Both the position numbers and the translations under genes were made by a program. From NCBI GenBank assembly GCA_902800305.1, contig CADCDP010000013.1, forward strand, positions 33,662 to 97,661: a stretch of DNA of 64,000 bases, given 5' to 3'. Shown piece after piece: positions 17,542 through 56,846 of the stretch. A model generated the notes under the pieces. It saw nothing but the letters and a program-made list of their open reading frames with translations. It made no database searches and was not told the DNA's origin. The DNA is from an uncultured Bacteroidales bacterium. GTDB lineage: Bacteria; Bacteroidota; Bacteroidia; Bacteroidales; Bacteroidaceae. The first letter of the stretch is position 1. Each line of letters starts with the position of its first letter.

Positions 17542-17624
17542 GTCTGTGTCTGTACAAACACAGCCTAAGATTATACAAACACAGGCTGAGTCTGTACAAA
17601 CTCAGTCTGTGATTATACGTTTTA
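17541..17624. repeat. four 21-bp tandem repeats
   Basis: Four units with an exact 21-bp period start at 17541, 17562, 17583 and 17604, for example AGTCTGTGTCTGTACAAACAC. The units contain local dyads such as CTGTGTCTGTACAAACACAG. They follow immediately after the 23-bp array and lead into the ~200-bp palindromic element. Confidence 0.85.
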
Positions 17625-17827
17625 AAAGTCAGAGAATTTTAAGAGTTATAAGAAGGCCATGCGGCAAGGGTAAAAGAATTCCGCAAGCGGCGGAGAATTG
17701 TAAGAAGCTGGCGCAGTGTTAGGAAACTGGCCGCATGGTCTTAAAATTCTCAGCGCCTAAGGCGAATTCCAAACACCCTGCATAGCTCTTAAAATCCTTG
17801 AAATTCTATGACTTAAAAACTTTAAAA
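17621..17827. repeat. ~200-bp palindromic element A, copy 1
   Basis: The ends are inverted copies of each other (AAGTCAGAGAATTTTAAGAG against GACTTAAAAAC preceded by AATTCTAT). The inside carries the shared core GAAGCTGGCGC...CCGCATGGTC at 17704-17742 and further dyads such as GAATTCCGCAAGCGGCGGAG. It is homologous, in inverted orientation, to 19100-19340, and to 56670-56846. Confidence 0.8.
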
Positions 17828-17845
17828 TAAATCTTTCTTTTTTTA

Positions 17846-17899
17846 CTGTTTTTATTTGTTTTTACCTGTTTTTCTTTCGTCCGCCGAAGGCGTATAACC
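17846..17899. repeat. T-rich tract plus CCGCCGAAGGCG hairpin, copy 1
   Basis: Reading + the element is CTGTTTTTATTTGTTTTTAC..., then CGTCCGCCGAAGGCGTATAACC. Nearly the same sequence in the same orientation lies at 19341-19395. On the - strand it is a short hairpin followed by an A-rich stretch downstream of hemW. Confidence 0.75.
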
Positions 17900-17930
17900 T
17901 CTGAATGTTAAAAGCTCCTTGGAGCGATAG

Positions 17931-19046
17931 CTATGGCAGCTGCATGAAGTCGGACATGATGTCGTTGGAGACGAAAAGGCCCTGGCGGGTGAGGGTCAGC
18001 ACATCGCCGTGGCGTTCCATGCGTCCCGACAGCAAATGGGGACGAGCATTCTCCAAACAATACTGGAGATACTGCGAACCAAAAGCTGTTTGCAAAGTGT
18101 GGAGGTTGATGCCGTCGGAAGTACGCAAACCTGTGAAGATAAACTCATTGTAACGTTCATCCTCAGTCAGGACTTCCTCGGCGAGCGGCTTTCCCTCCAT
18201 GTAGTCGGAGAGAGAATCGGGATGGTAAAAGCGGTTCTGCCCGTCGTAGGAATGTGCCCCAGCCCCTACACCGAGATAAGGGATGCCGCGCCAATAACTC
18301 GAATTGTGACGCGAACGGAAGCCAGGCAAGGCGAAGTTGCTGATTTCGTAATGCTCGAAACCAGCTGCGGCAAGGGCATCCATCAGGTTCTCGTACATCT
18401 GGCGCGACACCTCTTCATCCACCTCCTCCACCCTACCCGCTTCGAGCATTCGGAACAGCGGAGTGCCCTCTTCGTACATGAGGGAATAGGCGGAAAGGTG
18501 CTGCACACCCAGCGACAAAGCTTGCTGCACGTCCGCATGCCACTGGCCGAGCGTCTGGGAGGGGAAGCCAAACATGAGGTCGATACTGATATTGTCGAAA
18601 CCAGCACACTGGGCATCCTGCACGGCTTGGAGCGCTTGACGGGCAGTGTGGCGACGACACAAAAACCGCAGCCTCGTATCATCGAACGTCTGTACGCCCA
18701 TGCTCAGTCGGTTGATGCCCATCTCCCGAAGGGACTCCAAGTAGGCAGGGGTGAGGTCGTCGGGATTGCCCTCCAGGGTCACCTCCGCCTCTGCGCGTAC
18801 ATGATAGATAGAATGGATGGTTTTCAGAAGGCGACCTATCTCAGAAGCTGCCAACTGCGAGGGTGTGCCACCACCGAAATAGACGGTCTCGACGGTCTCT
18901 CCCCGAAGAAATTCCTTCCGCCGTTCCAGCTCTTGCAGCACAGCATCCACATAACCACCACGTTCCCCCAGGGAGGTGGTGGAAAAGAAGCCACAATAGG
19001 CACAGCGTGACTTACAGAAGGGGATATGCACGTAAATACCAGCCAT
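17931..19046 (-). CDS. hemW: HemW-type radical SAM protein
   Basis: A 371-residue protein. The radical SAM cluster motif is CKSRCAYC with Cys at residues 11, 15 and 18, preceded by IYVHIPF. VETVYFGGGTPSQL and EGNPDDL are characteristic of the HemN/HemW group. The short N-terminus, starting directly at IYVHIPFC and lacking the HemN extension, points to HemW, a heme chaperone, rather than true coproporphyrinogen oxidase. The C-terminal HemN-like domain is present (ERYNEFIFTGLRTSDGINL). The gene is bracketed by inverted copies of the ~200-bp element A and shows no clear promoter box. Confidence 0.9.
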   Translation of the reverse strand: MAGIYVHIPFCKSRCAYCGFFSTTSLGERGGYVDAVLQELERRKEFLRGETVETVYFGGGTPSQLAASEIGRLLKTIHSIYHVRAEAEVTLEGNPDDLTPAYLESLREMGINRLSMGVQTFDDTRLRFLCRRHTARQALQAVQDAQCAGFDNISIDLMFGFPSQTLGQWHADVQQALSLGVQHLSAYSLMYEEGTPLFRMLEAGRVEEVDEEVSRQMYENLMDALAAAGFEHYEISNFALPGFRSRHNSSYWRGIPYLGVGAGAHSYDGQNRFYHPDSLSDYMEGKPLAEEVLTEDERYNEFIFTGLRTSDGINLHTLQTAFGSQYLQYCLENARPHLLSGRMERHGDVLTLTRQGLFVSNDIMSDFMQLP

Positions 19047-19049
19047 TAA

Positions 19050-19092
19050 CGCTGCGCTAAATGATAAATGACAAATGATAAATGATAAAACA
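19050..19092. repeat. heptamer repeat array ahead of hemW
   Basis: CGCTGCGCTAAATGATAAAT and further AAATGAC/AAATGAT units lie directly upstream of the hemW start on the - strand. It is the same repeat type as at 2609, 3003 and 4653. Confidence 0.7.
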
Positions 19093-19099
19093 AAAACAA

Positions 19100-19340
19100 A
19101 GTTTAAAGGTTAAAGTTTTTTTAAGTCAGAGAATTTAAAGATTTTAAAGAGCTATGCAGGGTGTTCGGAATTCGCCTTCGGCGCTGAGAATTGTAAGAGG
19201 CTGACGCGATGTTGGTAAACACTCCGCATGGTCTTCTTGAAATTCTCCGCCGCTTGCGGAATTCTTTTACCCTTGCCGCATGGCCTTCTTCTAATTCTTA
19301 AAATTCTCTGACTTTTTAAACGCAGACTTTAAACTTTTTA
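19100..19340. repeat. ~200-bp palindromic element A, copy 2
   Basis: Outer arms are TTTAAAGGTTAAAG-type heptamers and inner arms are TTAAGTCAGAGAATTTAAAG / AAAATTCTCTGAC. The core GAGGCTGACGC...CCGCATGGTC is at 19197-19235. Long stretches match the reverse complement of 17621-17827, for example GAGCTATGCAGGGTGTT and CTTTTACCCTTGCCGCATGG. Confidence 0.8.
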
Positions 19341-19394
19341 CTGTTTTTACTTGTTTTTACCTGTTTTTTCTTCGTCCGCCGAAGGCGTATAAAC
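19341..19394. repeat. T-rich tract plus CCGCCGAAGGCG hairpin, copy 2
   Basis: Second copy of the element at 17846-17899. It abuts the stop codon of the 1523-aa gene, so on the - strand it forms a hairpin in the 3' untranslated region followed by A-rich sequence. Confidence 0.75.
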
Positions 19395-22300
19395 CTATGG
19401 TTGTTGTCCCTCATACACGATGCCGGTGCCATCGCTGACCACCACGCGCACCTTGATGGGTGTGTCGGTGGAGATCTTGCCGAGGATGGCGTTCACTAAC
19501 GTGGTCACGTCGGAGATGTCCACGTTGCCGTCGCCGTTCAGGTCGGCGGTGTTCTTGTCCTCCGGTGTGCTCTTGCCGAGGATGATGTTCACGAGGGAAG
19601 TCACGTCGGAGATGTCCATGTGGCTGTCGCCGTTCACGTCGTAACCGCCGCCCTTCAGCTTGAAGTAGGCGCGGCAGGAGCCGAGGGTCATGTTGGCAGA
19701 GGGGCTGTGGAGCATATTGTCCTCGTCGAGGTAAAGCACGGAGGGGTCGTTTGCGTTGAAAGTCACAGGCGAGGTGCAGCCGATGAAGTCCACGTAGGAG
19801 GTCTTGACGGGAGCTGTGGCATCGCTGATGGTGACACCTAAGAATTTGGGATTGGCGATGTTCTCCACCCTGAAGACGGGAATGGAAATTTTCAGAACCA
19901 GATAACCATCTTCATCCAAATACCACTGGTTGCCAAGCGCTTCTGAGTATAAAGGAGCCTCGGAGTCTATTATGACACGGTTGATGTTGTCGGTGCAGCC
20001 AGTGATGGTGCTGGTGCCACCGTCCGTCAGCATCATGCCTAAACTGAGGCTGTTGCCGTAGGAGCCAGCACCCACACAATGCTCGATAGTGTGTGTGCCA
20101 CCGGCATTGCCCCAGCCATAGACGATGCCGATATGGGAGGCGGAGAGTGAACCGCCCACTTTGCAGTCGTGGATGGTGGTGGACGACGTGGTGCCGTTGC
20201 CTAAGATGCCACCCACATGGGAACCACCCGTCACTGTGGCAGCCATCCAGCAGTTGTGGATGGTGTTGGTGCCTCCCGTGGCAATGCCCACAAGCCCCGA
20301 TGTATAGTTGTCGCCACTGACGCTGCCGACTATCCATACATTGCGGATGGTGGCACCGTTGATGTAGCGGAACGGGGCGGCACCTTCGCCGCCATTGCTG
20401 ATATTGAGTTTTAGCTTTTGGGCAGCTCCCTCGAAGATGCCACTGAACGGATGCTCTGCTGTGCCCACCATCGTCGATACGTTGATGTCTGCACCTAACA
20501 TCACGGTCTTGCCAGCATACGTGTTGCCGTTGTTCACGCTTTCGGCGAAGGCGTTCCAGTCTTCCGTCGAGTTGATGGTGAGGTAGGCGGCTCTCTCCCA
20601 ATTCACGAGGTAGGGCTTGCCCGCCTCGATGCTGTTGGCATTCTCAAAGTTCAGGGTCAACGTGCCGTTGCTGAACGAGGTGCTGCTCAACGTCTTTACC
20701 GTAGCTTCTGCCAACGGAGTGCCCGTAAAGTTGCTGACATCGAACGGCAGACATAGCGTTTGCCACATACCGTCGCGGTGGAGGGTGCGGTCTTGAAGGG
20801 TCGCCTGCGCCTCCTTGTCTTTGTTGTCGTTGATGGTCATGCTGTTGTCGGCATGGTCGGCAAGGTCAATCTCCAACATCGAAGTGAAACAGAAGTCGTC
20901 CAAATAGAGCATAGCACTTCCTTTAAGATTGCAGATAACAACATATTGTGTTTCAGCAGGGAAGGAAGTTTCATACTGTGTCCACTCTCCGTCATAGGTT
21001 ATTACTGCACGCTCCCAAGTGATGGAAGCTGTTTTGCTGCTGGCATAGCCCACCTTAAATGCCGCTGGCCAATTGGAATTCGCATTCCTATAATAAAACG
21101 ACACTTTTATGGGCGTTCCGCCAGCAAAGTGAGGAGAATAGAGATATTCGTCTTTAGAGGTACCGTAGAAAAAGAAGAAACGTTTGCCAGTATGGACGCA
21201 TCCTCCTTCACTTATTCTATGTATTCCTGTAATCTGCTGGCAGTCTCTCATACGCCAGCCGCCCATGCCGTTTTCAAAGCCATCGGTATAGGGCAGACTC
21301 ACCACACTGCCATCGGTAAGGAAACTGTCTGAGGTGAAATTGCTGGCAATGCCTCCGCTTCCGAGCGCCTTGACACGGAATAGGTAGGTGGTGTTCTCAT
21401 CCAGGTTGCTCAAGGTGACGGTCGTGGTCTGTACCGTCGTCTCAGCCGACCATGTGTTATCCGTGGACTTTCGGTATTGGTAGGCATAGCCCGTGACGTT
21501 TCCTTCGGGAGCCGTCCACGAGAGCGTGGCTTCAGTGTCAGTCAGGTTGCTGACTGTGAGGTTCGTCGGTTTTTGGAATGCAGAATATTTCTCGAAGGAA
21601 AAGTCATCTATGTATGTACCCATTCCATCCTCAAAGTATTTGACGGCAATAAACCTGGTGCCCGTTGGGAAGCTATGTTCGTATCTTGTCCATGGGATGT
21701 TACGGAAATTAATCGCTTCGCCCCATTGAAAGGCATCAGGGTCGCTGGTCGTGGTGGAGTAACCCACATAAAAGATTTCCTTAGGACCTTCGTCCGGGTA
21801 ACGATCCTTGTAGTAGAACGACACGGACAAGGGGGTGGTACCCCCAAAACGAGGGGAAATGAGGTATTTGGGGGAGGGAGTGGTAGGCGAAGAGTGAAAA
21901 TAATAGCTTTTCTCTCCCTCATATTTGTCTCCCCCACGGATTCCCGTAGGTGCCAATCCATCATCCACCCTGCTCCAGCGGTCCATGCCGTTCTCGAAGC
22001 CGTATTCGTAGGGCAATCCCATGGCGGTGGTGAAGCTGAAGGGCTGCACATAGACGCTCTCGTCCTCACCGTAAAGGGCTTTCACACGGAACTGGTAGTT
22101 GGTGTTGGCGGTGAGTCCCGTCAGGGTGGCGGAAGTGGCATCCACGGTGGCTTCGGCAGACCAGTCTGCCTCATTCGCTTTCTTGTATTGGTAGGCATAG
22201 CCCGTAATGGTTTCGTCCGCTTCGGGTGCCTCCCATGTCAGCGAAGCCGTATATTCAGTAATATCAACAGCATCGAGATGCGTTGGGGATGGAGTATTGC

Positions 22301-23966: not shown

Positions 23967-24030
23967 TGTGTTTTGGTTTTAGTTCTTAACTTCGCCGTAC
24001 ACTCTTGTTCATGCCCACGCGTTACGGCGA

Positions 24031-24062
24031 CAAAATTACGAAGTTTTAAGTTTTTCACCAAA
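24031..24062 (-). promoter_or_regulatory. promoter of the 1523-aa protein gene
   Basis: On the - strand TTTG (24062-24059) and TAATTTTG (24038-24031) are separated by 20 bp, a full match to the Bacteroidales promoter consensus. The leader to the start codon is about 60 nt. Confidence 0.75.
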
Positions 24063-24119
24063 AAAATCGCATAAATCTTTCTACAGAGTGCCCTTTCTAT
24101 GGAGCCAAGGGGTTTAAAA

Positions 24120-24205
24120 GTCTAAGGAGTTTAGGAGTAAAGGAGTTTTTTGGGCGGCTTGTGCGCCGAGTGTCTTCTACTCCTTAACTCCTAAACTCCT
24201 TAGAC
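24120..24205. repeat. palindromic element B, copy 1
   Basis: Arms 24120-24145 and 24180-24205 (GTCTAAGGAGTTTAGGAG... / ...CTCCTAAACTCCTTAGAC) match over 25 of 26 bases. Each arm is built from 7-8-bp AAGGAGT-like units. The centre contains GGCGGCTTGTGCGCCGAGT, shared with the second copy at 55494-55613. Confidence 0.85.
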
Positions 24206-24271
24206 CCCAAAAAACTCTCTCCTTAGCCTAAAAACCTCTCTCCTTAGAAAATCTTCGGAAGAGTCTTCGAC

Positions 24272-24340
24272 GTTGAGTCTCGAGGGGCAACGACGTAGAG
24301 TCACGAGGGGCAACGACGTAGAGTCATGCGGGGCAACGAC
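24272..24340. repeat. three 23-bp tandem repeats
   Basis: Three units with an exact 23-bp period start at 24272, 24295 and 24318, of the type GTAGAGTCACGAGGGGCAAC plus GAC. The remaining bases 24341-24658 form the AT-rich leader region of the EF-G2-like gene, with another hairpin and A-rich element near 24430-24460 (TGCGCCTTCGGCGGACGAAG). No gene is seen there. Confidence 0.85.
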
Positions 24341-24658
24341 GAAGCCTATAGGGAAAATGTGGACAAAATGGAGGTGTCTCTCCTCGCGCGTACATTAAAT
24401 ATATATAGAAAGGCAACTTTGGGAAGTTTATGCGCCTTCGGCGGACGAAGGAAAAACAGCCGAAACTTAATTCATCTTACACGAATACCTGCCATAATGT
24501 GGCGATTTTAGCCAATAAATACTAAAAATAGAAAATAATGGGTCTTTTTTATGGCTTGTTTGTGGAAAAATTCGTAAATTTATCGCCGATTTTCAGATTT
24601 CAGCGTCATCTGTATAAAAGAAACTCTATACTAATCATTATAAACTAACCTAAGAACA

Positions 24659-26818: not shown

Positions 26819-26868
26819 AAAAGACGCATCGAAATCGACTGTCCGTTCCAAGAACGAACGATTATACG

Positions 26869-26904
26869 AGAGGGAATCCGTACCACACGGATTCCCTCTT
26901 TATT
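26869..26904 (+). terminator. intrinsic terminator after the EF-G2-like gene
   Basis: AGAGGGAATCCG and CGGATTCCCTCT (26869-26880, 26888-26899) pair perfectly over 12 bp around a 7-nt loop, followed by TTATTT. Confidence 0.9.
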
Positions 26905-26987
26905 TGTTATTTTGACAAGTAAAGTTTACCAAAACGTTAATAGACTAAAAACTTTTAACCTAAATAAGGAATATTTTCGTTAATCCC

Positions 26988-27018
26988 TTTTAGTATTTTA
27001 AGGAATGCCGTACATTTG
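26988..27018 (+). promoter_or_regulatory. promoter of the RprXY-like operon
   Basis: TACATTTG at 27011-27018 matches TAnnTTTG, with TTTT at 26988-26991, 19 bp upstream, in place of TTTG. Its position rules out the in-frame start at 27016 and supports the histidine kinase start at 27049. Confidence 0.65.
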
Positions 27019-27048
27019 TACTATCAAAGAAAAACGTCAGCAACATTT

Positions 27049-28628: not shown

Positions 28629-28639
28629 ATATAAGAACT

Positions 28640-29365: not shown

Positions 29366-29377
29366 TAATGAACAACA

Positions 29378-38792: not shown

Positions 38793-38852
38793 GTTAAGAT
38801 AGGATATTAGTGTATTTAAGTTCGCAAATGCTTGGGCTTCATTAATCATTGA

Positions 38853-38883
38853 GCTTTTATCATTGATCATTTAACGAAGCGTC
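38853..38883. repeat. short ATCATT-type repeat ending AACGAAGCG
   Basis: TTATCATTGATCATTTAACG followed by AAGCG repeats the layout of the CATTTGT...AGCGTAGCG elements near 3003 and 4653, upstream of the PL11 gene. Confidence 0.5.
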
Positions 38884-39211: not shown

Positions 39212-41776
39212 ATGCAACGACACACACATTTTTTAGCCATACTCTTCGTGTTCTGGATGCTGTCGGGAACAGCGCTTGACGGTCAAACCATCACGTATCA
39301 CGAGCTGCCCACACAGGCACAACTGCCTGTGGCCAACGTGAATGTGGTCATGCAGGACTCGGAAGGCTACCTCTGGTATGGCACCGCAGGAGGTGGCATC
39401 TGCCAAGACGATGGCTATCGGGTGGTGGTCTACAACAGCAAAACGGCTGGAACGGGAGTGATGGAGAGCGATGAGGTGACCTGCATGGCTGAAGACCAAC
39501 AAGGCAAAATTTGGTTTGGCACTCGCGCGGGTACATATTATATTTATAAGCAGGATAGGAGTGTTCATCGGGTGAAGGAAGAAGGGATGGAGAAAGGGAA
39601 GGTGAGCAGCATCGCTGTGGGGCACGACGGATGTGTGTGGATAGGCATCAAACGGGAGGTGGCAAGATTTTCTCCCGACGGAATATTGCAGGACATCTTG
39701 AAACTTGACTTGGGGAGTCGTGAGGAGGTGAAGGAGTTGACGGTGGACTCGAAAGGCACGGTGTGGGTCACCATCTTGCGTGGTGGCATCTGGAGCATCG
39801 ACCCAAAGACGGACAAAACCAAGCAGCAGAAGCCTTTTGTGCGGCGTAACCCATGGAACTACCCCTACGCAGCAAGCTATATGCTGGAGGACACGGTGCA
39901 TCATCGGTTCTGGATAGGGACATGGGGAGGTGGCATTGTGAGCTATCCTCCGGTAGCGGTGGAACGGGCGACGCTGGTCACGTCTGGCAGTCAGAAGTTC
40001 GGCAGCGAGGTCAATCATCTCTGGATGGACAAGAAGCAGGGTATCTTGTGGGCTTCGACGATGGATGATGTGTATGCTTACAAGATAGGGACAGACCATC
40101 AGACGGATGGAGGAGATGGCTTTCTTCGGCCATTCGACACGAGCAGCTTCATGCCCAAGGGGAAGAAGATAGTAGGTAAGCTGGCGGCTGACAAGAGGGG
40201 AAATCTGTGGGTAGCAGGCATTTCGCCCCATACGTTTGTTCTTGCCAAAGGTATCTCTGGCAACGACATCCGCAGGGATGAGGTGAAAGCGATGGCAGAA
40301 CAGATGGGGTATAAAATCATGGTGGGTCGCATCGTCCGTGAGGGTGATTATTATTGGATTTACCAGAACCGCACCCGCTTGTCACTCTACAACGGCAGGA
40401 CGGGCGAATTGGCTTTCATGGCTACAGACGCGAGTCCTGAACCGCTGAGCACACAGAGGGTGTTGGCTTCGTGCAAGGAACATCGGGGCGTATGGACTTG
40501 CAACGGAAAACGGCTGATTCACGCCTGGCATGACGGCATGACCATCTGTTGGGAGGAGGTGGAAGAGGCACGAACACCCAACTACATCTCGGCTTTGTCG
40601 GACGAGGGTAACGGGAAACTGCTCATCGGCACGGAGAAGCAGGTGCTCTTGTATGACTACTACCGGAAGGTGCTCACACCGCTAACGGACTCGGTGGGCA
40701 TTGTTCAGCAGGTGGGCTATGACACGAAGGGTGTCCTCTCTTACACGACCGACCCGAAAGCACAAAAAAGACTCATTGATGGGCATGGACACGTATGGAC
40801 GCTGGACGAACTGACCCTGACGGAACAGAATCCGAAAACAGGGGCTTACCGTGTGATTCATGCGTCGGACAAGCACATCGGTATGGACTCGTTTGCGGAC
40901 ATCTTCCTCTATGGCGACAGCATTTGCTTGGGAGGCATGGGCGCTTTCTGTATGGTGGGGCGATGCAAGGAGTTGGACGAAAAGCGTCCTGACGAAAAGG
41001 TGGTTTTGACGGGGATGGACTCTTTGCAATATGTGTATGTCTCGACCATGAACCACCTTCATGCACAGGACATCCAGTTCGCCTATCGTTTCAACGGGTC
41101 GGGGGATTGGACGGAACTACCGAAGGGCACGAATCAGATTGACATCACGGGGTTGAGGGCTGGCCATTACACGTTGCAGGTGAAAGCCACCGACGAGTTT
41201 GGCGTGTGGCACAAAGAGCAGGAAGTGTGCAGTTTTTCAGTTCCATGCCCGTGGTATCTGAGGTGGTACATGGGGTGCATCCTTCTCGCAGGAATAGGAG
41301 GGGCAGTGAGCTTCGGATGGAAGTGGAAAAGGGGAAAGGAAGAGGAAAGGGAAAAAGGAAAAGGGAAAAGTGAAAAATTTGCTGACGCAGTGGAGCAGGA
41401 AGAAGAGGACGAAAAAGAAGAGAAAGCTAAAGTAGAAAAGGATGCCAGACCGACCAAACACCCCTTCTTGGAACGGGTGGAGACCATCGTCGAGGCACAT
41501 TTAGACGAGGCTGACTATGGTGTAGAAGACCTCAGTAGAGACCTTGGCATGAGTCGCATGAACATGTACCGAAAGTTTCAGTCCATCTCCGATGTCACCC
41601 CTTCGGAGTTTATCCGCAAGTACCGACTCAACAAGGCGGCTCAACTGCTACGGGATTCGAACAAATCAGTCACAGAAGTTGCCTACCAGGTGGGCTTCAC
41701 TTCTCCTCAGTATTTCGCCAAATGCTTCAAGGACGAGTTTGGAGTGACTCCCAAACAAGCTTGCAAAGGGATGTAA
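39212..41776 (+). CDS. membrane-bound one-component regulator: beta-propeller sensor plus AraC domain
   Basis: An 854-residue protein with a signal peptide (ILFVFWMLSGTALDG). Residues about 30-600 form a two-component-regulator-type propeller (DSEGYLWYGTAGGGI, DQQGKIWFGTRAGT, DKRGNLWVAG). A Y_Y_Y-type domain follows at about 610-675 (DIQFAYRFNGSGDWTELPKG). One membrane helix lies near 684-702, then a highly charged Lys/Glu linker. An AraC-family DNA-binding domain spans about 755-850 (YGVEDLSRDLGMSRMNMYRKF, SVTEVAYQVGFTSPQYFAKCFK). It looks like a hybrid two-component system from which the histidine kinase and receiver have been lost. Sitting divergently from PL11-GH2 and near the rha operon, it probably senses a pectin product in the periplasm. 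The exact ligand and targets are inference. Confidence 0.85.
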   Translation: MQRHTHFLAILFVFWMLSGTALDGQTITYHELPTQAQLPVANVNVVMQDSEGYLWYGTAGGGICQDDGYRVVVYNSKTAGTGVMESDEVTCMAEDQQGKIWFGTRAGTYYIYKQDRSVHRVKEEGMEKGKVSSIAVGHDGCVWIGIKREVARFSPDGILQDILKLDLGSREEVKELTVDSKGTVWVTILRGGIWSIDPKTDKTKQQKPFVRRNPWNYPYAASYMLEDTVHHRFWIGTWGGGIVSYPPVAVERATLVTSGSQKFGSEVNHLWMDKKQGILWASTMDDVYAYKIGTDHQTDGGDGFLRPFDTSSFMPKGKKIVGKLAADKRGNLWVAGISPHTFVLAKGISGNDIRRDEVKAMAEQMGYKIMVGRIVREGDYYWIYQNRTRLSLYNGRTGELAFMATDASPEPLSTQRVLASCKEHRGVWTCNGKRLIHAWHDGMTICWEEVEEARTPNYISALSDEGNGKLLIGTEKQVLLYDYYRKVLTPLTDSVGIVQQVGYDTKGVLSYTTDPKAQKRLIDGHGHVWTLDELTLTEQNPKTGAYRVIHASDKHIGMDSFADIFLYGDSICLGGMGAFCMVGRCKELDEKRPDEKVVLTGMDSLQYVYVSTMNHLHAQDIQFAYRFNGSGDWTELPKGTNQIDITGLRAGHYTLQVKATDEFGVWHKEQEVCSFSVPCPWYLRWYMGCILLAGIGGAVSFGWKWKRGKEEEREKGKGKSEKFADAVEQEEEDEKEEKAKVEKDARPTKHPFLERVETIVEAHLDEADYGVEDLSRDLGMSRMNMYRKFQSISDVTPSEFIRKYRLNKAAQLLRDSNKSVTEVAYQVGFTSPQYFAKCFKDEFGVTPKQACKGM

Positions 41777-41875
41777 AGTTTAAAGGTTAAGGTTTAAAGT
41801 TTAAAGAGGCTAACGCGGTGTTTGCAAACATACCGCATGGTCTTTAAACTTTAACCTTTAAACTCTAAACTTTAC
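41773..41875. repeat. palindromic element with TTTAAAG heptamer arms
   Basis: Arms 41773-41806 and 41842-41875 consist of degenerate TTTAAAG/GTTAAGG heptamers and mirror each other. The centre GAGGCTAACGC...CCGCATGGTC (41806-41844) is the same core as in elements at 17704 and 19197. It overlaps the regulator's stop codon. Confidence 0.85.
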
Positions 41876-41876
41876 A

Positions 41877-44310: not shown

Positions 44311-44322
44311 AAATTCATTTAC

Positions 44323-44448
44323 AATGTACCATGTACCATGTACAATTATCATTGTGTCATAGTGTCATTTGCCATGCGGCTTGCTTGCGTCAGCCTTTTG
44401 TCTCAATGTCTCAATGATAATTGTACATTGTACATGGTAAATGGTACA
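44323..44448. repeat. palindromic element with GTACCAT heptamer arms
   Basis: Left arm (ACAATGTACCATGTACCATG...AATTATCATTG) and right arm (CAATGATAATTGTACATTG...) mirror each other around a centre containing GCCATGCGGCTTGCTTGCG and TCAGCC. That centre is the reverse complement of the RGGCTRACGC...CCGCATGG core of the other palindromes. It lies between rhaA and the MFS gene. Confidence 0.85.
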
Positions 44449-44451
44449 TAT

Positions 44452-47222: not shown

Positions 47223-47270
47223 TAGTCCTTTTACATTATACATGATACATTTTACATTCCTTGTATTTTG

Positions 47271-47302: not shown

Positions 47303-47371
47303 AAACAGACAAGAAACATCCCTTTTTCAACATTTTTTTACAAAACATTTCCTCCTTTCCACTTTTTTTCG

Positions 47372-47379
47372 TTTATTTG
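47372..47379 (+). promoter_or_regulatory. weak -7-like box for the 1808-aa protein gene
   Basis: TTTATTTG matches TAnnTTTG in seven of eight positions, about 90 nt ahead of the start codon; the -33 element is unclear. Confidence 0.4.
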
Positions 47380-47470
47380 CACCTCGAAAACCTAACCTCG
47401 GACTTTACCGAAACAAGATACACATCTTTTTATTATTAACCTTTTTAATTAACTAAAACCAAACAAACGT

Positions 47471-50400: not shown

Positions 50401-52897
50401 GGGTGCTACCGACGCACAAGTGGAAGGCACAGGTGTAGAATTCTCCGAAGGGAAGTACGTGCCCAACAGTGCCAGCGACTCTCGTACATGGTACATCGCT
50501 GGTCAGTATCTCAACGAAGTGCTCTTCAACGTGTTTGAGGATGGTGCCGTGACCATCGGTGTTTCCAAGACAGAAGGTCTTCCAGGCGACTACTGTCCAA
50601 TCGGTGCATGGAAGCTCTACCGTCTCGGCGACGCTGACGAAAGTGCCGCTACTCCAGACGAAGAGCCTGAACCAGAACCAGAGCCAGAGATTGCTACTGT
50701 GAAGATGACTTACGTTGACATGGACAAGGCCGATGAGGCCATGGGCGAAGTGACAGAAGCCATGACTGGTTACAACAATATTGTCAACGGCGAAATAACC
50801 ATGACCAACACAGGCTGGGGTTGCAACTGGATTACTTACATCCAAGTCGATGCATCGGCTTTGGCTGGCGATGTGAAAAACGCACAACTCACGATTGCTG
50901 CAACAGTTCCAGACCGCGCTCACAACATTGGTGTGGGCTACAACAGCTCTGTTTGGTCTGCTGACATGACCTACAACACGGCAGATAAGTCCATCATCAC
51001 ATTAGGTGAGACACAGACCATTGCCGCATCCAAAGGCTCTACCGCCAGCGGAGAACTCACGTTCGACATTACAGGTGCATTTGCCGATGGTGCCAAAACT
51101 GCCACCATCCTCGTTTACGACCTTGCTGCAGGTGGTACGACCATCACTTCTGCAACAGCTGTGGTTGAAACAGGTGACCCAGAAATCGAAATTGACGGCA
51201 TCATCTACGCCATCAAGAGTGGCAACCTTATCCCCAACGGCTCGTTCGACGACAACTTCGCTGGATGGACTCAGGCAAATGACTTTGCAACAGAAATCTC
51301 TGAAAACGGATTCGAGATTCAGTCTGAAGACGGTCACGAGAACTTCCTCGTAGGAACAAAGAACGAAGGTGCTGGTGGTGCCAACTCGCTCGGTACTGCA
51401 TGGAGCATCGAAGCTGGCAAGACTTACCTCTATTCGTTCGATGTCAAGTCTATCAACGCAGAGTCTGGCCCTGCAACCTACCTGAAGAGTTCTTTGACCA
51501 ACACCATCGGTGACGAGACATTCGTCCTCGATGTACCCAACGTTACTCCAGGCGAATGGACTTCTTACCAGAAGGTCTTCACGAACGAGGAATATCAGTA
51601 TCTACAGGTGAAGTTCCGCTGGCTTGCTGGCAACTTCGGCCTTGACAACTTCGCTCTCTACGAGGTTGAATTAAAGACTTCTGCACTCGAAGCTGCCAAG
51701 AAGACTGCCATTGCAGCCATCGACGCCCTCGCTCCTGTAGGCGACGGTATCTTCCAGTATGCTCCCGACGCTATCGCTACTGCCAAGGCCGCTGTTGAAG
51801 CTGCCGAGACTGTAGAAGCTGTGGAAGCTGTGCCTATGCCTAAGTTGACAGCTCCTGCTGCCGACCAGCTTTACATCCTCTCGCTCAAGACTTCCGACGA
51901 GGCAAGCCCATTCCAGCTGAGCATCACGACTGAGGGTATCAAGATTGAAGAAGAAGGTACTCCGACCTTCATCGTGGCTCAAGAAGACGGCACATTCGCG
52001 CTCTCTAATGGCACCGAATATGTGAACTATGCTGGTGGCGACAGATGGACCATGACGGCTTCGGAAGAGGCTTACGGTTGGATGATTGCCGCTGTTGAAG
52101 GTGGCTACACCATCACTGGTAAGAACGGTCTCCTCGGTACCAACACCAGCGACGGCAACGCTGCCGGTTCTCCTTGCTACGGCGATAAGAACACTTCCAA
52201 CGGCAACTACATTTGGACGATTGAGAAGGGTCCTGATTTCATCTGGTCTAAAAACATCATCAAGAATGGTGACATGGAAGGCGACGACATCAGTTGCTTC
52301 TTCAAGACAGAGCAGGGTGTAGGCGGTCCTTACAACGCTACGATTACTCCTGGTGCTGGTAAGGATGGTACCGCTGGCATCGAAGTACAATCTGGTAATA
52401 ATCCAAAGGAGGATTGGGACACTCAGTTCTTCATCCGTATGCCTTACATCCTGCCCGACGGCACAGACTTCCTCGTAGAGTTTGACTACAAGGCTGACAA
52501 GAACGCCACCACTGACACGCAGTCACACCATGAGCCAGGTACGTACAACCACTGGGCGTGCGTCGGTTCTCCAGACTTCACCACTGAGTGGCAGCACTAC
52601 AAGATGGAAGCTACTGTGGCAGGCGACATGAACAAGAATGGTGGTTTCATGACCATCACGTTCAACCTCGCTAAGGAGAAGACAGCCACGAAGTACTCGT
52701 TCGACAACATCAAGGTTTATGTACACAGCGACGTGCTCGACACGCTCGAACCTGCTCCTGAACGTTCTATCATAACAGGTATCGACGGCATCGACGCTGC
52801 AAGCATGAAGGCCAACGGCAAGTACCTCGACAACAACAAGATTGTCATTCTCCGCAACGGAAAGAAGTACAACGTACATGGCATGGAGCTGAAGTAA
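47471..52897 (+). CDS. large secreted multidomain protein with OB-fold and carbohydrate-binding-like domains
   Basis: An 1808-residue protein. Signal peptide MKKFLLSLVSLFALTLLAVAG. Residues about 185-287 look like an OB-fold domain of YhcR type (DQVYVKGIVNKIEDYN, VGATVIVTGTLTKYG). Several galactose-binding or CBM-like jelly-roll segments follow, ending in typical LDNFALYEVEL and SFDNIKVYVHSD strands. Two Ala-rich helical stretches (EAAKAAIAAAQKSADF, AAKKTAIAAIDAL) resemble FIVAR-like spacers, and an EPEPEPEPE linker sits near residue 1070. The end (NGKYLDNNKIVILRNGKKYNVHG) is a sorting-like tail. No catalytic domain is recognised; a surface glycan-binding or structural role is inferred. Confidence 0.8.
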   Translation: MKKFLLSLVSLFALTLLAVAGEPTKVLTFPAVGGENVNGYTTEWTATVGEDAWVIYGFNTNKNAATWTYVRCGQKAVEQTATITSPAVDVAITDVVITVDKTSKVTNASLTVLNGTETVQDIDITSDFVAGDVDVKVEGAAGYCYKLTVTSEVAGSNGTTQISKVALYEDGQYAEVHIANTAETAYTVAQAIELIDAGQALTDQVYVKGIVNKIEDYNEANKNITYWISDDGQTAAFEVFRGKGFEGADVESADEIQVGATVIVTGTLTKYGEIYEFAQGNQLVSYEAPAMVTFPVTIATEEAEMDNWTITSDDTFHRNTWSTENDESGMKTPFIEAWRGTGNMLNDATISHTTIEGLTPGSYTVKIFARAFNEGNATDYPSGITFFANGTEVVMTEVGSTSLFNDKSTVLYGTLVADCTVGEDGKLDLGFTITNAVTDWLAFKNLEIIYNDPVIPTVTAVTGKMGAAVAEAQTTAIAAFEATPTPETYEAAKAAIAAAQKSADFYAPFVAAVDALDEAGKAKFAEDEIAAAYEAGTLDETTTEGITAAIVTAQKAQTTAGADLSLVATSTAWTCPQGNGPGWYGAARETYSTSAYTAGKVMYQRIEGLVPGTYEVTFIATANMAWIGVATGENIAQIYANNDTYDIEVIGQTACTPADYERVYNVVVGEDGVLEYGLQNIAEGGNWYVAQALGLKLIEVAPEPEIELTYVDLTDDMFHEWDGVDANAQITGSVPNIYFESHIGEEVAAGGVVYGTSTVAYKSYAALAEYKTLKITRTNATGGLPRLLFGRLTDGGNEYIEISNAESEYIKATEDDGLTWIIDLDKIKENKEGLANLNVIKASWGGAVTIASIQLGKIGEDVPEIADVTDLIQNPAYLENGYEGWTYTENAFKARNYEAPMNLITYSGNAAFEVSQTIENVPAGLYKLTVNAFYRAGNLEDEQAKVAAGTELEKELTFYADVKDAGKYSKKVMNLSEGATDAQVEGTGVEFSEGKYVPNSASDSRTWYIAGQYLNEVLFNVFEDGAVTIGVSKTEGLPGDYCPIGAWKLYRLGDADESAATPDEEPEPEPEPEIATVKMTYVDMDKADEAMGEVTEAMTGYNNIVNGEITMTNTGWGCNWITYIQVDASALAGDVKNAQLTIAATVPDRAHNIGVGYNSSVWSADMTYNTADKSIITLGETQTIAASKGSTASGELTFDITGAFADGAKTATILVYDLAAGGTTITSATAVVETGDPEIEIDGIIYAIKSGNLIPNGSFDDNFAGWTQANDFATEISENGFEIQSEDGHENFLVGTKNEGAGGANSLGTAWSIEAGKTYLYSFDVKSINAESGPATYLKSSLTNTIGDETFVLDVPNVTPGEWTSYQKVFTNEEYQYLQVKFRWLAGNFGLDNFALYEVELKTSALEAAKKTAIAAIDALAPVGDGIFQYAPDAIATAKAAVEAAETVEAVEAVPMPKLTAPAADQLYILSLKTSDEASPFQLSITTEGIKIEEEGTPTFIVAQEDGTFALSNGTEYVNYAGGDRWTMTASEEAYGWMIAAVEGGYTITGKNGLLGTNTSDGNAAGSPCYGDKNTSNGNYIWTIEKGPDFIWSKNIIKNGDMEGDDISCFFKTEQGVGGPYNATITPGAGKDGTAGIEVQSGNNPKEDWDTQFFIRMPYILPDGTDFLVEFDYKADKNATTDTQSHHEPGTYNHWACVGSPDFTTEWQHYKMEATVAGDMNKNGGFMTITFNLAKEKTATKYSFDNIKVYVHSDVLDTLEPAPERSIITGIDGIDAASMKANGKYLDNNKIVILRNGKKYNVHGMELK

Positions 52898-52931
52898 TGA
52901 CTCGCTAAGTGCATTGCTGCATAAACAGAAG

Positions 52932-52972
52932 TCCCCCTGCAAGTTGTTAGCCCAACTTGCAGGGGGATTTTT
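52932..52972 (+). terminator. intrinsic terminator after the 1808-aa protein gene
   Basis: TCCCCCTGCAAGTTG and CAACTTGCAGGGGGA (52932-52946, 52953-52967) pair perfectly over 15 bp around TTAGCC, followed by TTTTTC. Confidence 0.95.
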
Positions 52973-53057
52973 CACTTTTCACTTTCCCTTTTCCTTTTTC
53001 CTTTTTCTGCTTTCGCAAATTTTTCCCTTTTCTCTTTTCTCTTTCACTTTTTTATCG

Positions 53058-53065
53058 TACCTTTG
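53058..53065 (+). promoter_or_regulatory. -7 promoter box for the GH51 gene
   Basis: TACCTTTG is a full TAnnTTTG match, with TTTT at 53035-53038, 19 bp upstream. It supports the start at 53109. Confidence 0.65.
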
Positions 53066-53108
53066 GCACCAGAAATATTTTATTCACAATCAAACCTATT
53101 CTATTGAC

Positions 53109-55115
53109 ATGAAAAAGAAATGGAACTTTTTGGGTGCTATGCTGGCTATGGCGGCTGGCATGACGGCACAAACACACTCGCTGGACGTGAACACGTCGAA
53201 GGCGGGAGGCGCGATTCCGAAGACGATGTATGGCATCTTCTTCGAGGACATTAACTATGCCGCCGATGGCGGTCTGTATGGCGAACTGGTGAAGAACCGT
53301 TCGTTTGAGTTTCCAAATCATCTGGCTGGATGGGACATTTCGGGCAAGGTGTCGCTGAAGGATGATGGCCCCTTCAAGAAAAATCCTCATTACGTGAGGC
53401 TTTCTCCGTCGGGACATAACGACAAGCACACGATGATTGAGAATCACGGCTTCTTCGGCATGGGCGTGAAAGGCGGTGAAGAGTATCGCTTTTCGGTGTG
53501 GGCACGTGTGCCCGATGGCGGCACGGCGAAGTTGTGGATTGACTTGGTGGATAATGCCACGATGGGCGATGACCAGAAGTTGGGCAACACTGGTGTGGAA
53601 GTGAGCGGTAAGGAATGGAAGAAATACACCGCCATCATCAAGCCGAAGACAACGTTTGCCAAGGCACACTTGAGGGTGTGGGGCGACGCGAAGGTGACAA
53701 CGGATGTGGAGCACGTGAGCCTCTTCCCTGTGAACACGTACAAGGGGCACGAGAACGGGATGCGCAAGGACTTGGCTGAGAGTCTGGAGCAGTTGCACCC
53801 AGGGGTGTTCCGTTTCCCTGGCGGCTGCATCGTGGAGGGTACGGACTTGGCCACGCGCTATCAGTGGAAGAACTCGGTGGGACCCGTGGAGAACCGTCCG
53901 CTGAACGAGAACCGCTGGCACTACACGTTTACGCACCGTTATTTCCCCGACTATTTCCAGAGCTACGGTCTGGGCTTCTTCGAGTATTTCCAGTTGTCGG
54001 AGGAGATTGGGGCTGAACCGCTGCCGGTGGTGAGTGTGGGACTTTCGTGTGAGTTCCAGAACGGGTCGGCTCGTAGCGATGCGCACGTGCCTGTTGACCA
54101 GTTGCAGCCTTACATCGACGATGTGCTCGACCTGATTGAGTTTGCCAACGGCGACCCTGCCACGAACCAGTGGGCGAAGTTGCGTGCCGACATGGGGCAT
54201 CCTGCTCCGTTCAACTTGAAGTATGTGGGCATCGGCAATGAGCAGTGGGGAGCTATCTATCCTGAGAACTTGAAGCCGTTTGTGGAGCAGGTACGGAAGA
54301 AGTACCCGAACATCAAGATTGTGGGAACAAGTGGTCCCGACTCGGAAGGCAAGGAGTTTGAGTATCTTTGGCCTGAGATGCGCAAGATGGGGGCTGACTT
54401 GGTGGATGAGCACTATTACCGCAATGAGGCGTGGTTCCTCGGCACTCCTGAGGCCAAGCAGCGTTGGGGCAACTGTGGTGCGAACCGTTATGACAGCTAT
54501 CCACGGAAGGGTCCGAAGGTGTTTGCTGGCGAATATGCGTGTCACGGAGCTGGCAAGAAGTGGAACCACTTCAACGCGGCTCTGATGGAGGCTGCCTTCA
54601 TGACGGGACTGGAGCGCAATGCCGACGTGGTGGAAATGGCGACGTATGCACCGCTCTTTGCACACGTGGAAGGCTGGCAGTGGCGACCCGATGCCATCTG
54701 GTATGACAACCTGCGCAAGTTCAACTCCTGTGCTTACTATGTGCAGCAGCTCTATTCGCTCAACAAGGGTACGAACATGCTGTCGCTGACCATGAACGGC
54801 AAGCCTGTGGCTGGCAATCCCGACCAAGACGGACTGTTTGCTTCGGCTGTGCTGGACAAGGGCACGAACGAGGTCATCGTGAAGGTGGTGAACACGGGTG
54901 ACCAGCCGCAGGAGGTGACGCTGAACCTGAAGGGCATGAAGGGTAGCCATGAGGCGCAGCTGATTTCGTTCCACAGCGACAACCTCACGGCGGAGAACAC
55001 GCTGGACGAACCTGAGAAGATTGTGCCCAAGACTTCGACGCTCACAGTGAATGCGCCACAGCAGAGCGTAAGTGTTCCCGCGCGTACATTCTATATATAT
55101 AGGATAAGGAAATAA
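53109..55115 (+). CDS. alpha-L-arabinofuranosidase, GH51
   Basis: A 668-residue secreted enzyme (signal peptide ends near MTAQT). The GH51 N-terminal strand AIPKTMYGIFFEDINYAADGG is followed by an inserted carbohydrate-binding-like segment (GEEYRFSVWARVPDGGTAKLW). The barrel contains FRFPGGCIVEG, the acid/base Glu378 in YVGIGNEQWG and the nucleophile Glu475 in VFAGEYACHG. A C-terminal beta-sandwich domain ends the protein. It removes arabinose from pectic arabinan or arabinoxylan side chains. The frame is open upstream to 52914, but that stretch overlaps a terminator and the promoter. Confidence 0.94.
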   Translation: MKKKWNFLGAMLAMAAGMTAQTHSLDVNTSKAGGAIPKTMYGIFFEDINYAADGGLYGELVKNRSFEFPNHLAGWDISGKVSLKDDGPFKKNPHYVRLSPSGHNDKHTMIENHGFFGMGVKGGEEYRFSVWARVPDGGTAKLWIDLVDNATMGDDQKLGNTGVEVSGKEWKKYTAIIKPKTTFAKAHLRVWGDAKVTTDVEHVSLFPVNTYKGHENGMRKDLAESLEQLHPGVFRFPGGCIVEGTDLATRYQWKNSVGPVENRPLNENRWHYTFTHRYFPDYFQSYGLGFFEYFQLSEEIGAEPLPVVSVGLSCEFQNGSARSDAHVPVDQLQPYIDDVLDLIEFANGDPATNQWAKLRADMGHPAPFNLKYVGIGNEQWGAIYPENLKPFVEQVRKKYPNIKIVGTSGPDSEGKEFEYLWPEMRKMGADLVDEHYYRNEAWFLGTPEAKQRWGNCGANRYDSYPRKGPKVFAGEYACHGAGKKWNHFNAALMEAAFMTGLERNADVVEMATYAPLFAHVEGWQWRPDAIWYDNLRKFNSCAYYVQQLYSLNKGTNMLSLTMNGKPVAGNPDQDGLFASAVLDKGTNEVIVKVVNTGDQPQEVTLNLKGMKGSHEAQLISFHSDNLTAENTLDEPEKIVPKTSTLTVNAPQQSVSVPARTFYIYRIRK

Positions 55116-55176
55116 AAGCAGACAGACCCCTCTCCCCCGTCCTCAGCAAGAGCACTTGCTTCGGTCGCTCCCGACA

Positions 55177-55195
55177 GAGAGACATTTAGTCTCTC
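55177..55195. other. small hairpin in the gap after the GH51 gene
   Basis: GAGAGAC, ATTTA, GTCTCTC form a 7-bp stem-loop. It lies inside a low-complexity stretch (ACCCCTCTCCCC near 55129 and CCAAGGGGAGAAG near 55217) that is itself loosely inverted. No reading frame is supported between 55116 and 55666. Confidence 0.4.
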
Positions 55196-55264
55196 CGTTC
55201 TCTCGGTCGCTACCCCAAGGGGAGAAGTATAGAGATTTTTAGCAACGATTAAAAAATAACTTGG

Positions 55265-55380
55265 TATGATTTGCCGCTTTGCGGCATTAAAAAGAAAAAT
55301 AAAGAAAAACAAATAAAAACATGAAAAAAAAATTTTTATATTTTTTTCTATTTTTTCTTTCTACGCCCCGCAGGGGCATA
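55265..55380. repeat. palindromic element C, copy 1
   Basis: TATGATTTGCCGCTTTGCGGC heads an A-rich arm (AAAAAGAAAAATAAAG...), which is mirrored by a T-rich arm ending CTACGCCCCGCAGGGGCATA. Both ends are small hairpins. The second copy at 63356-63552 is nearly identical outside an insertion. Confidence 0.85.
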
Positions 55381-55480
55381 AGTCAAATGTCAAATGTAAA
55401 ATGTCAAATGTAACTCATTAAATAATTAAGTTATTTTTTTACGATTACTTAATGTAAAATGTCAAATGTCTAAGGAAGTC
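55381..55480. repeat. AAATGTC/AAATGTA heptamer repeats
   Basis: After element C comes AAATGTCAAATGTAAAATG with related units, a short AT stretch, and then another set (AATGTAAAATGTCAAATG) before element B copy 2. The two sets are in the same orientation. Confidence 0.7.
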
Positions 55481-55493
55481 ACTCTAAGGTTTT

Positions 55494-55613
55494 AAGTCTA
55501 AGGAGTTAAGGAGTTAAGGAGTTTTTTGGCGGCTTGTGCGCCGAGTCCTTCTTCTTGGGAGTTTTTAAGGCTTTCGCGAAAGCCACTCCTTAACTCCTAA
55601 ACTCCTTAGACTT
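55494..55613. repeat. palindromic element B, copy 2
   Basis: Arms 55494-55522 and 55585-55613 (AAGTCTAAGGAGTTAAGGAG.../...CTCCTTAGACTT) match over 28 of 29 bases. The centre has GGCGGCTTGTGCGCCGAGT as in copy 1, plus an extra GGCTTTCGCGAAAGCC hairpin. Confidence 0.85.
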
Positions 55614-55666
55614 TAAAAAAACTCTCCTTAGAAAAAAAAAACCCTCCTTAGAAAAAAAAGCACAAC

Positions 55667-56632
55667 ATGAAGAAAAAGCTATTGGCCATCATCGCATTAG
55701 CCCTACCCCTTTGGGGCTTGGGAGGCTCCATGCAAGCACAACAGGCGAAGGTGTATTTCACTCAGGAAATTACGCCAGAATCGTTAGTGAGAATCTATGA
55801 CGCACTCGGTGTAAAGGAGCACGGACGAGTGGGCGTGAAAATCAGCACGGGAGAGAGTGGCGGCAACAACTACCTGAAGCCGACGCTCATCCGCAACCTG
55901 GTCGATAAGGTGAATGGCACCATCATCGAGTGTTGCACAGCCTACGGAGGTAGCCGTCTGGACAAGGCGAAGCACTGGGCGACCATCCATGAACACGGCT
56001 TCGACAGCATCTTTGCCGTCGATATTATGGATGAGCATGGCGACCTGCGCATCCCTGTCGAGGACAAGACGTGGATTAAATACGACATCGTGGGCGAACA
56101 TTTAGGCAACTACGACTTCTGCATCAACCTGGCGCACTTCAAAGGGCACATGATGGGTGGCTTCGGAGGTGTGTTGAAGAACCAGAGCATCGGTTTCGCC
56201 TCGACAGCTGGCAAAGCTTACATTCACTCTCATGGCGTGACTGCCGACCCTGGTAAGTGTTGGCAGCACACACAGCCACAGGATGCCTTCCTCGAAAGCA
56301 TGGCTGCCGCCGCACAAGCGGTGGCGAATTGGTTCGGCAAGGGCAACATCGTGTATATCAACGTGCTGAACAACATCTCCATCGACTGCGACTGCGACGC
56401 TCACCCTCATGCTCCAGAGATTGAGGACATCGGCATCGTGGCCTCTACTGACCCCATTGCTTGCGACCGTGCCGCCTACGACCTCATCTACAAGGTGCAG
56501 AAGGACGACAAGAATAATCCAGACCCTCTGAAACGGCGCATCGAGAAGCAGCACGGCGTACACATCATCGAGCATGGCGAGAAAATCGGCATGGGCACAA
56601 CGAACTACAAACTCGTTTCGTTAGATAAATAA
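55667..56632 (+). CDS. secreted DUF362-domain protein
   Basis: A 321-residue protein with a clear signal peptide (KKLLAIIALALPLWG, cleavage after MQAQQ). The rest is a DUF362 domain: VGVKISTGESGGNNYLKP, NLAHFKGHMMGGFGGVLKN, and DCDCDAHPHAPEIEDIG followed by ASTDPIACDRAAYDL. Many DUF362 proteins carry 4Fe-4S ferredoxin motifs and lie in the cytoplasm; none is present here, and the export signal is unusual. The clustered Cys/Asp/His might bind metal. Its function is unknown. The DNA for its signal peptide is nearly identical to that of the PL1 gene 1.2 kb downstream. Confidence 0.8.
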   Translation: MKKKLLAIIALALPLWGLGGSMQAQQAKVYFTQEITPESLVRIYDALGVKEHGRVGVKISTGESGGNNYLKPTLIRNLVDKVNGTIIECCTAYGGSRLDKAKHWATIHEHGFDSIFAVDIMDEHGDLRIPVEDKTWIKYDIVGEHLGNYDFCINLAHFKGHMMGGFGGVLKNQSIGFASTAGKAYIHSHGVTADPGKCWQHTQPQDAFLESMAAAAQAVANWFGKGNIVYINVLNNISIDCDCDAHPHAPEIEDIGIVASTDPIACDRAAYDLIYKVQKDDKNNPDPLKRRIEKQHGVHIIEHGEKIGMGTTNYKLVSLDK

Positions 56633-56669
56633 CTCAAATTTCTGAAGTAGTTAAGTAGTCAAAGCTTTT

Positions 56670-56846
56670 TTAAGTCATAGAATTTTAAGAATTATGAAAG
56701 AGCTATGCAGGGTGTTCAGAATTCGCCTTCGGCGCTGAGAATTTCAAGACCGTACGGCCAGTTTCCAACATCGCGTCAGCTTCTTAGAATTCTCAGCCGC
56801 TTGCGGAATTCTTATTTCTTGAAATCCTTAAAATTCTTTGACTTAA
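56670..56846. repeat. ~180-bp palindromic element A, copy 3
   Basis: Ends TTAAGTCATAGAATTTTAAG and (reverse complement) TTAAGTCAAAGAATTTTAAG are inverted repeats differing in two of 22 bases. The interior has GAGCTATGCAGGGTGTTC and the core on the - strand (GAAGCTGACGC...CCGTACGGTC, 56746-56783). Homologous to 17621-17827 and 19100-19340. Confidence 0.85.

Follow-up and report, generated by a model that had tools for sequence, protein, structure and literature searches.

Intergenic elements in which a conserved core of 24–45 bp is flanked by arrays of 7- or 8-bp units, one array inverted relative to the other, were found in the window (the whole stretch of 64,000 nucleotides that was analysed) and in related species of the genus. 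This family is real, and it is likely a small mobile repeat of a new style, whose arm swaps and core flips probably arise when a folded hairpin is miscopied. As a rule, palindromic repeats of bacteria are defined by a conserved stem; here, the stem is variable and the interior is constant, which suggests that a repeat finder based on stem sequence would break one such family into many.

All five intergenic elements reported in the preliminary description are present in the window (Table 1). The pattern GGCTRRCGC-N(4-30)-CCGYAYGG, for which the mean chance level in the window was 0.00 (100 shuffles), occurs exactly in three of the five, while the cores at 17706 and 56750 begin with AGCT instead of GGCT. 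The proposed spacer of 10–25 bases does not extend to the core at 44372, where only 7 bases were found. Mirrored degenerate heptamer arms, described earlier for every locus, were recovered at 41772–41876 (TTTAAAG type) and 44317–44449 (GTACCAT type), but not at 17621, 19100 and 56670. These three elements are members of a single composite subfamily, about 200 bp long, that has a common frame and side hairpins, and therefore their arms are not locus-specific. The idea of one core with locus-specific arms fits the genome and the genus better than the window, since 33 left-arm consensus units, some of them one base apart, were found among 94 sites.

Table 1. Positions of the core elements and their parts in the window.
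Feature	Position	Strand	Description
Core of element A	17706–17738	+	
Core of element B	19199–19231	+	
Core of element C	41808–41840	+	GGCTAACGC...CCGCATGG
Core of element D	44372–44395	-	7-base loop
Core of element E	56750–56781	-	reverse relative to the composite frame
Composite element A	17612–17830	-	palindrome of ~200 bp with a pair of side hairpins; inner core in reverse to the frame
Composite element B	19110–19322	+	frame as in element A; inner core forward, opposite to element A
Element C, left arm	41772–41807	+	TTTAAAG-type heptamer array
Element C, right arm	41841–41876	+	array of inverted heptamers; 89% complementarity with the left arm
Element D, arm	44317–44367	-	GTACCAT-type heptamer array
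Element D, opposite arm	44399–44449	-	82% complementary
Composite element E	56667–56846	+	inner core 56750–56781

The search of the whole genome and its relatives with the gapped core pattern confirmed the family, giving 34 matches in the 3.67-Mb genome (G000) versus 0 for the reversed pattern. Using a core model with strict filters, for which 150 candidates were scored in each genome, at least 70 copies were detected in G000, and copies were present in 24 of the 45 genomes of the genus, the habitat of which is likely the rumen. Across the order, the family is almost missing: a somewhat narrower pattern gave one single match besides G000 among 295 genomes drawn from it. It should be noted that GGCT/CGC and CCGCATGG look invariant in the gathered cores largely because both were fixed in the search pattern; in the composite copies, these positions do vary.

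The arms are 30–50 bp long and consist of tandem arrays of a changing unit. Arrays of 7- or 8-bp units lie on both sides of 118 of the 184 gathered cores versus 59 of 18,086 random positions, and the self-match of the arms is 0.64/0.62 at lag 7 and at most 0.35 at the other lags from 3 to 12 (130 elements). At 73 of 94 sites, the left-hand unit agrees with the right-hand one; in 20,000 permutations, the maximum was 35 and the mean 19. Over 28 positions, 22.1 are paired in matched arms versus 16.6 in swapped arms. Pairing is poor (fewer than 18 of the 28 positions) at 14 of the 94 sites, and of the 34 sites that do not belong to the TTTAAAG class, only 9 have the true partner arm as the best match among all arms. 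Several G014/G081 elements have unlike and hardly complementary arm units (GACAATT on the left, CCTCATT on the right). The z-scores of single-stranded DNA folds were between −2.9 and −6.8 (six strands).

Orthologous sites were compared between species, with one genome per species. The gaps proved to be filled in some species of the genus and empty in others. At site A, a gap of 27–30 bp occurs in 6 of 30 loci and a core-I element in 10 others, one of them degenerate, and the gap at 44312–44451 (element D) measures 0–47 bp in 10 of the 17 genus loci for which both flanks were found. It is possible, if rather doubtful, that the arm classes are separate subfamilies, each moving as a whole block into hotspots, with nothing regrown or flipped in place. 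Some gaps do hold other cores in other species, and thus unlike arms at one site can mean separate, that is, successive or independent, insertions. In addition, the TTTAAAG class in G000, with its similar loops, resembles one expansion, and the states of site A are scattered on the flank-gene tree, where 12 of 27 inner branches are well supported.

Such insertion of fixed blocks is at odds with a site at which two species share an identical 29-bp core in the same orientation between flanks that are 95.0 and 99.1% identical, while both arms differ (heptamers versus octamers). This is one case; the same species pair has the same arms at two other sites, and at the adjoining site the core loop is altered as well. 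An octamer remnant beside the heptamer arm in G127, which would mark the ancestral arms, was considered and dropped because a third site has a similar flank, and the orthologue of that site carries different arms. Also difficult for fixed blocks is an identical core that is inverted between two other species, with the arm type the same and flanks 98.6 and 98.1% identical. Inside the asymmetric composite frame, the core orientation is also split, being forward in 7 and reverse in 12 of the 19 distinct copies in which a core and both frame markers were present (from 31 entries examined). One of the seven groups called flipped, L030/L104, was not counted as firm, as its flanks match poorly (49 and 41% over the compared stretch). 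A segment between inverted repeats in both orientations, as in invertons, is seen between species and between paralogous copies. The segment that flips is about 30 bp long.

As for the arms themselves, there is no mutation-by-mutation mirroring, and the arms at one site diverge independently; at site A, the left arms gain units and mutate, and the right arm does not follow. Arm exchange, where seen, is by blocks. The length of the arrays differs between orthologues by about whole units.

Based on the above results, we suggest, with roughly even confidence, that the family is a non-autonomous hairpin repeat recognised at its core and remodelled by replication slippage and template switching. 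The elements likely spread as such hairpins, and it is likely slippage together with template switching that exchanges the arms and flips the core. Filled sites would arise by copying of the unit, a trans-acting enzyme may recognise the core, and the working form is presumably a folded single strand. The mirroring of the arms and the flipping of the core could then be ascribed to template switching and not to the enzyme. The rebuilding of arms by slippage and templated hairpin copying, one of two options offered in the preliminary description, gains support from the arm exchange, the whole-unit length differences and the core inversion. The last is relevant because, according to the available text of PMC8604942, template switching between inverted repeats homogenises the arms and inverts the spacer as a known by-product. 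That system is alike in that the arms are made alike and the spacer is inverted in place; however, it concerns yeast coding DNA with arms of 10–16 bp and spacers of 3–5 bp in the entries available, whereas here a spacer of about 30 bp is compared between species.

Since related species show different arm and orientation states at the same site, two old questions become testable in one natural system: where long stems come from and how their pairing persists, and at what frequency intergenic DNA is remodelled by template switching.

The other option, a structured RNA (terminator, mRNA stabiliser or regulator) with a stem free in sequence, is improbable. Strong hairpins, arm complementarity above chance and the frequent position of elements 20–60 bp from the nearest called ORF agree with it, but orientation relative to genes is mixed: among 104 copies flanked on either side by a called ORF, 39 are antisense to both neighbours, 25 sense, 24 between convergent and 16 between divergent genes by simple ORF calls. 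Mismatches of the G.T and A.C types in the arms are similar in number (75 versus 88, p = 0.35), and these counts together carry no strand-specific RNA signature. Moreover, presence varies between species, the core is flipped at an orthologous site, and Rfam covariance models gave no match at gathering level in the window.

We regard as similarly improbable a scheme in which only the core is inherited, the folded core being recognised by a trans-acting machine that builds both arms anew from species-specific units of 7–8 nt. If true, the family would form a new class of bacterial mobile repeat and the arms would be disposable tails, like telomeric repeats, exchangeable at every copy while the core persists.

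Some features of MITEs are present, namely short, non-coding, multicopy sequences with empty sites in relatives and an intergenic position (from simple ORF calls; 22 of 132 entries fall inside a called ORF, and several of these are core matches without arrays). Conserved terminal inverted repeats are not among them, as the inverted ends differ by locus and species. No target-site duplication was evident by eye between filled and empty sites, compared between species only. It is very unlikely that the elements are REPs moved by a RAYT or IS200/IS605 Y1 transposase. They do resemble GTAG REPs (PMC3733652, as far as available) in being short palindromes between genes that number in the tens and vary in presence, but the arms are arrays and not a fixed short stem. 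By eye, no shared GTAG or CGTC tag was seen at the element ends, which are array units differing by locus. PF01797, the only transposase family tried, had 0 matches in G000 at an E-value of 0.001 and none in 15 of the 24 genus genomes with core-model matches. Most carriers thus have no Y1 transposase by this model, which weakens the RAYT reading, and membership in REP/RAYT was rejected on the absence of PF01797 from G000. Inverted repeats are a known source of assembly mis-joins and the named carriers are mostly MAGs; an artefact of this kind is nevertheless very improbable, because the arms of about 35 bp are imperfect, so that one read would presumably span flank, arm and core, and several species that were assembled separately share the same alleles.

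No description of array arms around a constant core was found in the open-access literature searched, parts of which were available, and this is not a claim of absence. In the available text of PMC3733652, GTAG/CGTC REPs and BIMEs are likewise short intergenic palindromes, often in at least tens of copies and uneven between species or strains, and CGTC REPs too seem to be without a dedicated transposase. Their stems, however, are 5–13 bp with a GTAG or CGTC tag, whereas here the arms are arrays and it is the interior that is conserved. BrickBuilt and other MITEs of Porphyromonas gingivalis (PMC4596501, in the part available) are also intergenic, non-coding Bacteroidales elements with tandem repeats and inverted ends, but BrickBuilt has central 23-nt direct repeats and short terminal inverted repeats, while here the repeats are the mirrored arms and the ends differ by locus. 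PINSR, a 188-bp repeat of Prevotella intermedia, is similarly lineage-restricted, intergenic and probably non-coding with no known mover; it is set apart by its available description (PMC4755523) as lacking terminal inverted repeats. Heptamer direct repeats such as TAACTGA, noted in five Bacteroidetes, are mostly intergenic arrays of 7-bp units as well; in the accessible text of PMC4679880, they are direct arrays without a core, and the genome mainly treated there has one inverted case.

In genus g22, GC-rich matches were observed in G048 (20 copies) and G069 (12 copies), with no 7–8-bp arrays at the loci printed, and these may be another repeat. The core pattern was also present in nine IMG/VR stretches; phage carriage of the family was rejected. 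In eight of the nine, no arrays were seen in the 45 bases on each side. In the IMG/VR stretch L394, the left side of the core is AT-rich and array-like.

The pattern GGCTRRCGC-N(4-30)-CCGYAYGG matched 34 times in the source genome G000 (3.67 Mb, both strands) against zero matches for the reversed control, so that the genome-wide search proposed in the preliminary description placed the core above chance. The window itself contains three matches, with none in 100 shuffles. Of the five intergenic elements described earlier, three fit the GGCT pattern, and the core of the remaining two has AGCT in its place. A model of the core, built from 39 sequences from these genomes, detected at E 0.01 no fewer than 70 copies in G000, and at least 24 of the 45 genomes of the genus had one or more; these counts are lower bounds because 150 candidates were scored per genome under strict filters. 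The pattern search found the core in 25 of the 45 genomes, and an exact array-armed copy in G141 was overlooked by the model run.

Read from the outside inwards, an array arm is followed by the 5′ motif; then come a variable loop, the 3′ motif and, lastly, the inverted arm. The loop can often pair as TG..CA (46 and 40 of the 48 distinct 29-base cores). Arm self-match peaked at lag 7 (0.64 and 0.62, n = 130 elements), all other lags from 3 to 12 giving at most 0.35. Among 184 cores from 43 genomes, chance core matches included, arrays were found on both sides in 118, on the left only in 18, on the right only in 16 and on neither side in 31 (the remaining one being too short); at random positions in these loci, two-sided arrays were found in 59 of 18,086 cases. 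When one of the 118 was kept per orthologous site, 94 sites remained, whose left arms gave 33 consensus units, some one base apart. Left and right units agreed with no more than one mismatch at 73 of these sites versus a permutation maximum of 35 (20,000 permutations), and 22.1 of 28 positions were paired in matched arms versus 16.6 in swapped arms. There are exceptions: several elements of G014 and G081 combine a GACAATT array with a CCTCATT array on the opposite side, some copies are single-armed, fewer than 18 of the 28 positions are paired at 14 of the 94 sites, and at the 34 sites not belonging to the TTTAAAG class the best-pairing arm was the true partner in only 9.

The separate, locus-specific arms described earlier do not extend to the elements at 17621, 19100 and 56670, which form one subfamily with a common composite frame of ~200 bp and side hairpins. 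BLAST of the 17621 composite against G000 gave at least 70 matching pieces (40 of 81 candidates scored). Both frame markers occurred with the core in 21 of 31 composite entries and without it in one, and nine had a single marker. As the frame is asymmetric, the orientation of the inner core is readable: it was forward in 7 and reverse in 12 of 19 copies (the 21, with each of two pairs of similar contig ends counted once as duplicates). Both orientations occur in the window, forward at 19199 and reverse at 17706 and 56750. Adjoining two composite elements, 17838-17900 and 19330-19395 hold similar TTTTTACYTG-like runs followed by CGTCCGCCGAAGGCGTATAA, which recurs as a near reverse complement near 24430.

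Cross-species site pairs, obtained by BLAST of both flanks of the 184 elements, were non-independent and had the same orientation in 40 cases and the opposite in 26. Both orientations were present in 7 of 20 site groups (G048, G069, G099 and G184 excluded), one of the seven being weakly flanked. In three of them, namely site A (one intergenic gap compared in 30 loci), L068/L108 and L070/L226, the arms differ too, so separate insertion is possible there. In the best flip, G081 versus G014, the 29-bp core is identical yet inverted between flanks of 98.6 and 98.1% identity, with the same arm type and each arm on its own side. In the best arm exchange, G127 versus G306 (flank identity 95.0 and 99.1%), an identical core in the same orientation lies between TTTAAAG heptamers in both arms of one and TTGAAGAA-type octamers in both arms of the other. 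At a neighbouring site ~0.5 kb off both arms differ likewise, as does the core loop; three further sites comprise two with identical or near-identical arms and one octamer-armed in both genomes. The alignment of orthologous gaps, made between species, revealed one case of joint arm change round the same core; at site A the arms mutate independently.

Site A is a gap of 27-30 bp in six species of the 30 loci. The core lies forward between GTTAGGA arms in six loci and reversed between octamer arms in four (one of these cores is degenerate); in two loci the arrays enclose another putative core, and the remaining 12 have other sequence, partly short arrays. These states are scattered over the flank-gene tree, in which 12 of 27 inner branches are well supported. 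For the gap around the window element at 44323, both flanks were located in 17 of 30 loci: the gap measures 0-47 bp in ten, contains this element in G000 and other sequence in four, and in G113 and G314 is occupied by an element whose arms are also arrays but whose core differs. This second core, AAATGTYATGCT...AAGGTATC, marks a sister family that likewise adjoins inverted arrays (7 copies in 3 of the 45 genus genomes; L290-L296 in G113, G314 and G141). Since other cores occur with inverted arrays in such gaps, the architecture is not bound to one core and the gaps are reused.

The empty gaps, the range from 0 to 70 copies within the genus and the similar-looped TTTAAAG class of G000 speak for a likely spread of the element as a unit. 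Of the 104 copies with a called ORF on either side, 39 were antisense, 25 sense, 24 convergent and 16 divergent, and G.T arm mismatches were about as frequent as A.C; this mixed gene orientation and mismatch parity point to DNA rather than RNA. Six strands folded as DNA gave z of -2.9 to -6.8. According to PMC8604942, template switching between inverted repeats makes arms alike and inverts the spacer, and according to PMC8794818 it can create stems in a single step. Whole-unit slippage would yield arms of unequal length; combined with template switching, a new array on one side could be mirrored on the other with the core unchanged. Against slippage with template switching stand the single case of arm exchange, the independent mutation at site A, the arms disagreeing at some sites, and the failure to find a mover or target duplication: no PF01797 transposase was found in G000 or 14 other carriers, nor was a duplication evident by eye when filled and empty sites were compared between species. 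Slippage with template switching is nevertheless the likeliest explanation, and we consider it rather unlikely that whole blocks were replaced by insertion instead of the arms being mirrored in place.

These repeats have traits in common with REPs, MITEs, BrickBuilt, PINSR and heptamer arrays, as far as tested fit the full definition of none of them, and are filed as a variant among short intergenic palindromic repeats. A loose core pattern occurred in 36 of 301 genomes of the bacterial family, 12 within the genus and 24 outside; the latter mostly had 1-2 matches each, and nearly all inspected ones were intragenic or array-less. Beyond the genus, three genomes labelled g15 (G226, G156 and G295) had array-armed copies, and G115 (g19) has a single core match whose loop is typical. 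In G226, L063:11273-13120 contains the core 24 times head-to-tail on one strand with a period of 79 bp. An order-wide sample of 295 genomes gave the pattern in G000 plus one single match elsewhere. A stricter pattern retrieved 61 stretches from a collection of 84,980 species: 58 from records labelled Prevotellaceae, Bacteroidaceae or Bacteroidales and three from Alphaproteobacteria. As record titles among them often mention rumen, reticulum or omasum, we infer the source of the window to be a bacterium of the rumen. A core-like sequence adjoining an AT-rich, array-like stretch was also seen in a viral contig (L394:5027-5054).

Further arrays and palindromes of the window.
Feature	Coordinates	Remark
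Palindrome, mirrored AAGGAGTT-type octamer arms, common core GGCGGCTTGTGCGCCGAGT	24120-24205 and 55490-55617	arms 94-96% complementary
Third array-armed palindrome, ACGAATTA-type arms, shared core with GTCGCTTGCGAC	63213-63316 and 63590-63703	
Core-less TAAATGA/TTTGTCA-type arrays in short inter-ORF gaps	1681-1712, 2601-2632, 3002-3046, 4654-4693, 19058-19089, 38839-38873	
Minisatellite, 23 bp, GCCCGTATCCACTTCCATCACAC	17404-17532	
Minisatellite, 21 bp, ATCGTAAGCTTCGATAGTACA	63902-63968	

The core of the octamer-armed palindrome was absent from the 394 loci searched. Five of the six core-less arrays terminate in GCGNAGCG or ACGAAGCG, which may form a mini-hairpin.
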